NCBI GenBank assembly: GCA_024635475.1
Contig: JAGXIW010000004.1
Coordinates: 60,923-124,922, forward strand
Source of the DNA: a bacterium
GTDB taxonomy: Bacteria > Patescibacteriota > Gracilibacteria > BD1-5 > UBA6164
DNA: 64,000 nt
Direction: 5' to 3'
Position numbers and translations under genes: made by a program. This document shows positions 30,883 to 31,485 of the stretch, one piece after another (the first letter of the stretch is position 1; every line of letters begins with the position of its first letter). The notes beneath the pieces were generated by a model that saw only the letters and a program-made list of their open reading frames with translations, did not search any database and had not been told where the DNA came from.

Positions 30883-31485
<603 letters not shown>

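Follow-up and report, generated by a model that had tools for sequence, protein, structure and literature searches.

CGG as a probable tryptophan codon and an unusual tRNA-CCG in a genome of Candidatus Gracilibacteria

In the genome of an uncultured member of Candidatus Gracilibacteria (G000; 8 contigs totalling 1,346,126 bases, 93% complete), the codon CGG is found mostly at tryptophan positions and is likely read as tryptophan by the sole tRNA with the anticodon CCG. This tRNA is predicted to be a substrate of the ordinary tryptophanyl-tRNA synthetase (TrpRS). Judged from sequence comparison, we put the probability of this reading at about 0.85. Evidence was collected from the window, i.e., the whole stretch of 64,000 nucleotides that was analyzed, from further parts of the same genome, and from relatives in the same family (f1) and in sister families (f2 and f3).

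CGG codons in the window and across the genome

Open reading frames (ORFs) of the window were chosen greedily with UGA translated as glycine and a length of at least 80 codons, giving 19,157 codons in total. Among these, CGG occurs 9 times, CGA twice, and CGT 20 times, CGC is absent, and the counts for AGG, TGG, and TGA are 40, 93, and 860, respectively. The nine CGG codons, a number already given in an earlier note made from the window sequence, are spread over five ORFs encoding an MFS transporter, an acyltransferase, a PD40 protein (five CGG), KorB, and an Amidase_2 protein. As also claimed there, arginine is written mainly as AGA (422 versus 20 CGT), and the two large ORFs that the note called rpoB and rpoC (35326-38835 and 38928-42950) contain no CGG. 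When the nine sites were graded by alignment, three fell into firm tryptophan columns, five appeared compatible with tryptophan, and one was without support.

KorB, the beta subunit of 2-oxoacid:ferredoxin oxidoreductase, is encoded on the forward strand (30883..31485) by a 200-codon ORF that begins with MRSGLNKIQ[CGG] and matches Pfam TPP_enzyme_C with an E value of 5.7e-34. Its CGG (30910..30912, forward strand) is in frame at the tryptophan of the WCPGCG motif (IQ[CGG]CPGCGDF), exactly where it had been reported. Among 21 genomes with the exact motif, including our own, the tryptophan codon is TGG in 16 and CGG in 5, the latter all belonging to the 15 genomes that possess a tRNA-CCG (0 of the 6 without it). 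The Gracilibacteria KorB locus L076 also has CGG, and of 12 KorB loci outside Gracilibacteria, 7 contain the exact motif, all with TGG. The second firm column is codon 5 of the acyltransferase (MRIS[CGG]VDNLKG; 11989..11991, forward strand). Of the 120 matches listed, 58 were aligned, one of which was the window protein itself and was not counted; the remaining 57 show tryptophan in 42 cases, arginine in 6 (close relatives), tyrosine in 4, His, Phe, Val, and Ala in one each, and one gap. The third is codon 26 of the MFS transporter (IPI[CGG]YFFF; 3641..3643, forward strand), for which 38 aligned homologues have W in 20, R in 5 (again close relatives), F in 5, L in 2, M in 1, and a gap in 5. 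At both sites, the arginine of the close relatives may be CGG translated by the standard table.

Four of the five CGG codons of the PD40 protein, all on the forward strand, occupy position x of the repeat motifs KDGK-x-IIVKDG (16113..16115 and 16224..16226), KDGK-x-LVVKDG (16557..16559), and QDGK-x-LVVKDG (16917..16919). In 14 other propeller repeats, x is W four times, M three times, Y twice, L, S, V, K, and Q once each, and never Arg; in this comparison, tryptophan is thus the commonest residue, but the position is not conserved. At the fifth site (KYNNV[CGG]TPTYSP; 17496..17498, forward strand), several other repeats have Tyr and others D, S, or N. The CGG of the Amidase_2 protein (GAHAI[CGG]NNRSS; 60963..60965, forward strand) is matched by Ser in an aligned relative, and tryptophan is unsupported there. 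The proposal that the same replacement occurs in the acyltransferase, the MFS transporter, and the propeller repeats therefore stands for the two former, whereas the propeller sites are softer and compatible with tryptophan.

On a larger scale, the 319 ORFs (120,397 codons) identified in 400 kb of contig C4 contain 71 CGG, 28 CGA, 133 CGT, 15 CGC, 2755 AGA, and 727 TGG codons. The meaning of CGG and CGA was estimated by comparing the genome's ORFs within 464 kb of 1.35 Mb (83 CGG, 33 CGA) with stretches of six relatives. Both codons were masked as X, each site was assigned the counterpart of highest local identity (at least 0.4), and counterparts that were themselves CGG or CGA were left out. 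Of the 83 CGG codons, 36 were testable; 27 are aligned to Trp and 9 to other residues (F and S twice each, R, Y, M, G, and A once each), placing tryptophan above arginine by 184.5 log-likelihood units, with P(W|R) amounting to 0.0009 in these data. Fourteen of these sites correspond to motifs of a single tandem paralogue family and have Trp throughout; without this family, 22 sites in 21 genes remain (W 13, R 1), and tryptophan still exceeds arginine by 90 log units. The Trp-aligned sites include those in TrpRS and KorB. As a control, random sets of twelve sites were drawn for other sense codons, and 1932 of 1965 such subsets gave back the codon's own amino acid; this control is in-sample, as the substitution table was built from the same data.

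Under the same test, relatives of the same family give tryptophan and no arginine (G010, 13 of 21 sites; G023, 6 of 6; G017, 3 of 5; G021, 2 of 3), and G024 of the sister family f2 gives arginine at 17 and lysine at 7 of 38 sites and tryptophan at none. With a looser threshold (0.25, all pairs), R and K account for 3 and 1 of 94 pairs in our genome and for 1 and 1 of 44 in G010. The sole tested CGG of our genome at arginine is located in a 150-codon ORF (G000:C4:73399-73851; L096), with Arg in three genomes; this ORF is perhaps a broken paralogue of an array with the motif IPDDILN[CGG]AIECE. Taken together, the data for this genome strongly support the reading of CGG as tryptophan put forward in the earlier note, and a predominance of arginine columns, named there as one finding that would speak against it, was not seen in the 464 kb (1 of 36). 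In NCBI table 25 (SR1 and Gracilibacteria), UGA as glycine agrees with the data (TGA at G in 2326 of 2941 sites), while the standard meaning given there to all other codons departs from CGG as tryptophan.

Two further observations concern contig C4. The IPDDILN[CGG]AIECE array extends from about 48,000 to 98,000 (L095-L097), with CGG kept at Trp in the common motif. A single ORF of 5471 codons (G000:C4:140111-156526; L100) contains 15 CGG and 43 TGG.

The tRNA-CCG, its charging, and its origin

At a strict threshold, 30 tRNAs were found in the genome, together with two weaker matches far below the cut-off; ARAGORN at a 60% threshold added only noise. The readers of CGN codons are a tRNA with the anticodon GCG (Arg, A73) and the tRNA-CCG, which is located outside the window (G000:C4:382119-382195; L030 1501-1577), ends in A1:U72 and G73, and scores weakest of the 30 (45.8 bits). 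The UGG reader, tRNA-Trp(CCA), lies within the window (22764..22838, forward strand) and also has A1:U72 and G73.

For comparison, 30 distinct tRNA-CCG sequences were assembled, 28 from family f1 and 2 from G251, leaving out a copy at a contig edge in G255. All 30 have A1:U72 and G73, all lack GG18-19 in the D-loop and have A20/A21, and 28 have G55 in the T-loop. The anticodon stem comprises six positions, with an outer pair 27:45 that is formed in 30 of 30 sequences (CG 12, AU 10, UA 7, UG 1); pair 29:43 does not form in 3 of them, and the innermost combination, 32:40, is A.C or C.A in 18. Over the whole structure, 96.2% of the cells pair, a value reached in 0 of 500 shuffles and falling to 34 to 45% when the pairing is slid by 1 to 3 columns. 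According to a published rule, A20 together with A or G at position 73 marks an arginine acceptor, the call being withheld when the D-loop is unusual (PMC8629427). By this rule, the A20 of tRNA-CCG would count as an arginine element, but its D-loop, lacking GG18-19, is of the unusual kind. Of the profile given in the same source, i.e., a tRNA-CCG with G73 but without A20, G73 is present in 30 of 30 sequences, whereas A20/A21 are retained within the unusual D-loop. The search suggested in the earlier note, for a CCG tRNA of tryptophan identity, thus recovered the anticodon, G73, and A1:U72, but in an arginine-like body that keeps A20/A21. A more canonical relative is found in G051 (family f15 of the same class; L310 1468-1544), which shares the TAGCTTAA D-arm and has GG in the D-loop, a UUCGA T-loop, A1:U72, and G73.

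Our genome has one TrpRS (L113; G000:C4:177197-178147, reverse strand), which carries a CGG at a Trp column in common with G004 of the same genus, so that synthesis of TrpRS would depend on its own product. A second TrpRS was considered and set aside; the extra matches of some relatives are mostly below the cut-off, G010 having two above it. E. coli TrpRS recognizes G73 through Glu155 and Gln152 and A36 through Ser227 (PMC12135181), so that G36 of tRNA-CCG requires tolerance. A survey of TrpRS, in which 29 of 30 loci were parsed (G032 left out; 13 further match rows above the cut-off not included), found the Gln152/Glu155 contacts kept in all 29. Of the 16 f1 members with tRNA-CCG, 9, among them our genome, have Asp at position 227 (E. 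coli numbering) and 7 have Ser; Asp also occurs in 1 of the 2 f1 members without it (G016) and in 0 of 11 from f2 and f3. The correlation being incomplete, with seven f1 members keeping Ser and G016 having Asp without the tRNA, Ser227Asp was not accepted as an adaptation to G36, and Asp227 in f1 is regarded as a lead from sequence, not as proof. The TrpRS gene of G016 contains a single CGG, which falls at an arginine position.

The occurrence of the two tRNA types was surveyed by pattern searches requiring an encoded CCA in 40 rows of relatives, our genome included. The tRNA-CCG is present in 21 of 24 f1 rows and in 0 of 16 f2 and f3 rows. An arginine-type tRNA-UCG is present in all 16 f2 and f3 rows, where ARAGORN confirmed 14 and the pattern alone detected it in G026 and G038, and also in 2 of the 24 f1 rows (G016 and G020), both without the CCG type. 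In f1 genome G006 neither type was found, and the two were never found together in the 40 rows, an exclusion with a Fisher p of 1.7e-10 that is confounded by descent. Over 353 genomes of the class, the D-arm pattern matched 35, i.e., 33 of 48 f1 rows, the f2 genome G251, and G051. In G251, two copies of the tryptophan-type tRNA-CCG lie about 700 bases apart (L214 / L227), which suggests transfer or mis-binning into the sister family. The order of G051, with one match in two genomes, was rejected as a wider home of this tRNA.

To trace its origin, tRNA-CCG was compared with 36 tRNA classes, with the acceptor stem left out, the anticodon masked, and the Arg-CCG class taken without the tRNA-CCG of G051, which is itself of tryptophan type. 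By mean identity, Arg-UCG ranked first (18.5), followed by Arg-UCU (16.7), Val (14.8), and Met (14.2), with Trp-CCA 15th (10.1) and Arg-CCG 17th (10.1). Arg-UCG, at 13 sequences the largest class as well, was nearest for 22 of the 30 sequences, Met for 5, Val for 2, and Phe for 1. In this comparison, tRNA-CCG appears to be a converted tRNA-Arg(UCG), and a duplicated tRNA-Trp is the less likely source. The acceptor arm, with 4.4, 1.9, and 6.8 identities of 15 to Trp-CCA, Arg-UCG, and Gln-UUG, respectively, resembles neither parent in the alignment and matches several other tRNAs at least as well as tRNA-Trp; only A1:U72 and G73 point to tryptophan. In the mechanism we propose, low G+C content would have made CGG rare, and a tRNA-Arg(UCG) would have exchanged U34 for C34, thereby reading CGG alone, and acquired the A1:U72 and G73 end accepted by TrpRS. 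As one tRNA would have been converted, loss of the arginine reader and gain of the tryptophan reader would be a single event. Drift from TGG to CGG at tryptophan sites would have come afterwards, and CGA would have stayed outside the change, likely still as arginine. Both end states occur in sister families of one order, i.e., CGG as arginine with an arginine-type tRNA-UCG and CGG as tryptophan with a converted tRNA-CCG and no arginine-type tRNA-UCG, which makes the route through conversion of a single tRNA testable.

Three other accounts of CGG were weighed. CGG might be ambiguous, either because the former arginine tRNA is charged with both amino acids or because the transition is under way. 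The arginine-like body with A20, the rarity of the codon (71 of 120,397, versus 727 TGG), and the one Arg-column site would fit this account, but arginine is seen at 1 of 36 sites in our genome and at none of the best-aligned sites in G010 (21), G021 (3), G023 (6), and G017 (5), so we regard ambiguity as improbable. That CGG is still arginine and its Trp alignments reflect chance or decayed genes is considerably less probable again: the site with Arg in three genomes and A20, an arginine element by the published rule, would favor it, but 27 Trp sites to one, at a P(W|R) of 0.0009 and with 184 log units against arginine, would be left to chance, although they include TrpRS and KorB and although the same test does return arginine for f2. 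Editing of CGG to UGG in the mRNA, with an unchanged genetic code, has a precedent in the C-to-U editing of plant mitochondria, and a single C-to-U change would turn every CGG at a Trp column into UGG. We nevertheless consider it very unlikely, as a shift is not seen across sense codons in general (1932 of 1965 subsets gave their own amino acid) and a dedicated tRNA-CCG with conserved A1:U72 and G73 is present.

CGA and the remainder of the CGN box

The six testable CGA sites of our genome are aligned to K (three), F, N, and H, with arginine 5.8 log units below lysine. In the same family, CGA is aligned to R at 35 and K at 9 of 51 sites in G010 and to R at 7 and K at 5 of 22 in G021. The two CGA codons of the window, both on the forward strand, do not look like tryptophan on comparison: the one in the context ESDIA[CGA]DVFEF (11411..11413) is by eye in no Trp column, and the one in a HIT-domain protein (IVI[CGA]DINP; 44785..44787) has a Lys counterpart. 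With CGA as arginine in G010 and G021 and without tryptophan in our genome, CGG appears to have been split from CGA in family f1. A code of the Absconditabacteria kind, with both codons as tryptophan, would share UGA as glycine and CGG as tryptophan with our data but is most unlikely, as none of the CGA sites in our genome (6), G010 (51), or G021 (22) is aligned to W and a tRNA-UCG was not found in our genome. Of the parallel with Absconditabacterales drawn in the earlier note, the part concerning CGG stands, whereas the organism belongs to Candidatus Gracilibacteria and CGA (0 of 6 sites at W) does not follow.

Neither a tRNA-UCG nor a tRNA with the anticodon ACG was found in our genome (93% complete), in which the GCG tRNA is present, and neither anticodon turned up among the tRNAs of G010 (98% complete), though CGA is at arginine in 35 of 51 sites there. 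A tRNA-UCA reading UGA as glycine was likewise not found in our genome, though TGA makes up about 4.5% of codons and G010 and G021 have such a tRNA; this is perhaps an assembly gap or a miss of the tRNA model.

In two other f1 genomes, G023 and G013, CGA may have changed as well. Their tRNA-UCG (L203 1501-1576 and L204 1501-1576, both reverse strand) has G3:U70 and A73 and is nearest to tRNA-Ala, and G3:U70 in the acceptor stem is the signature of alanine. Ten CGA sites of G023 are aligned to T and L (two each) and to R, I, G, Q, A, and E (one each), with threonine best and Gln, Ala, and Arg at -1.8, -2.7, and -8.0 log units; two testable sites in G013 have Lys and Ser. The three CGA codons of a G023 flavoprotein fall into columns of T/I/V/S, S/T/A, and L/V/I (119 matches listed), and in the last two, Arg occurs only in the nearest relatives among the matches listed. 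A PBP1-type protein of G023 has CGA at the Ala of NRAT in PBP1A, the query itself having Arg there, as do three PBP1B among the matches listed. For the CGA of ClpP, five PDB chains among the matches listed have Glu and G010 has Gln. From these alignments, arginine is unlikely for CGA in G023, and alanine is proposed as a hypothesis. A broader scenario, in which family f1 gives up the CGN box of arginine one codon at a time, is tentative and on balance rather doubtful: CGG would have passed to tryptophan through the converted tRNA-Arg(UCG) with its sixth anticodon-stem pair, leaving CGA stranded, and CGA would then have passed to alanine in the genera of G023 and G013 through a tRNA-UCG with G3:U70, resulting in several codes within one small clade.

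Relation to known codes

Reports of sense-codon changes in bacteria are few, and the ones in PMC8629427 were obtained computationally. The same study computed CGG as tryptophan for some Gracilibacteria and as arginine in others (Shulgina and Eddy 2021, PMC8629427), so the codon change itself is not new. Our data agree with that prediction in the group, in UGA as glycine, and in the occurrence of both meanings, here tryptophan in f1 and arginine in f2 genome G024; they differ in tying the change to one family, a converted arginine tRNA, and the absence of the arginine-type tRNA-UCG. In the literature searched, figure supplements and supplementary tables aside, we did not find the separation of CGG from CGA, the conversion of the tRNA and the sixth pair in its anticodon stem, the boundary between families, or the lead on CGA, nor did the titles and abstracts listed mention this tRNA-CCG or, for Gracilibacteria, a change of CGA to alanine.

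The code inferred for Absconditabacteria (UGA as glycine, CGA and CGG as tryptophan; PMC8629427) is similar in UGA, CGG, a tRNA-GCG for CGU and CGC, and low G+C content. There, however, tRNA-UCG and tRNA-CCG read CGA and CGG, whereas here the tRNA-CCG occurs without a detected tRNA-UCG and CGA does not appear to be tryptophan. Closer in this respect are Anaerococcus and Onthovivens (RFN20), for which CGG to tryptophan has been described (PMC8629427, PMC13092985): CGG alone is changed and rare, tRNA-UCG is missing, and the tRNA-CCG has tryptophan features. In these genera, CGA is presumed to be read by tRNA-Arg(ICG) (PMC8629427, PMC13092985), whereas our genome has the GCG tRNA and no ACG tRNA was found; their anticodon stem has 4 bp in 8 of 14 genomes with an identifiable tRNA-CCG (PMC13092985), compared to six positions here. 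Recharging of an arginine tRNA with another amino acid has also been proposed as the likely route from AGG to methionine in uncultivated Bacilli (PMC8629427), a case that involves another codon and amino acid and in which AGG became dominant, whereas CGG stays rare here.

These results carry a warning, since public records can misread Gracilibacteria genes at CGG and UGA. In some public protein records of the group (P0002-P0022 and P0122-P0151), UGA appears to have been translated as Trp and CGG as Arg, so that the residues given there are probably incorrect.
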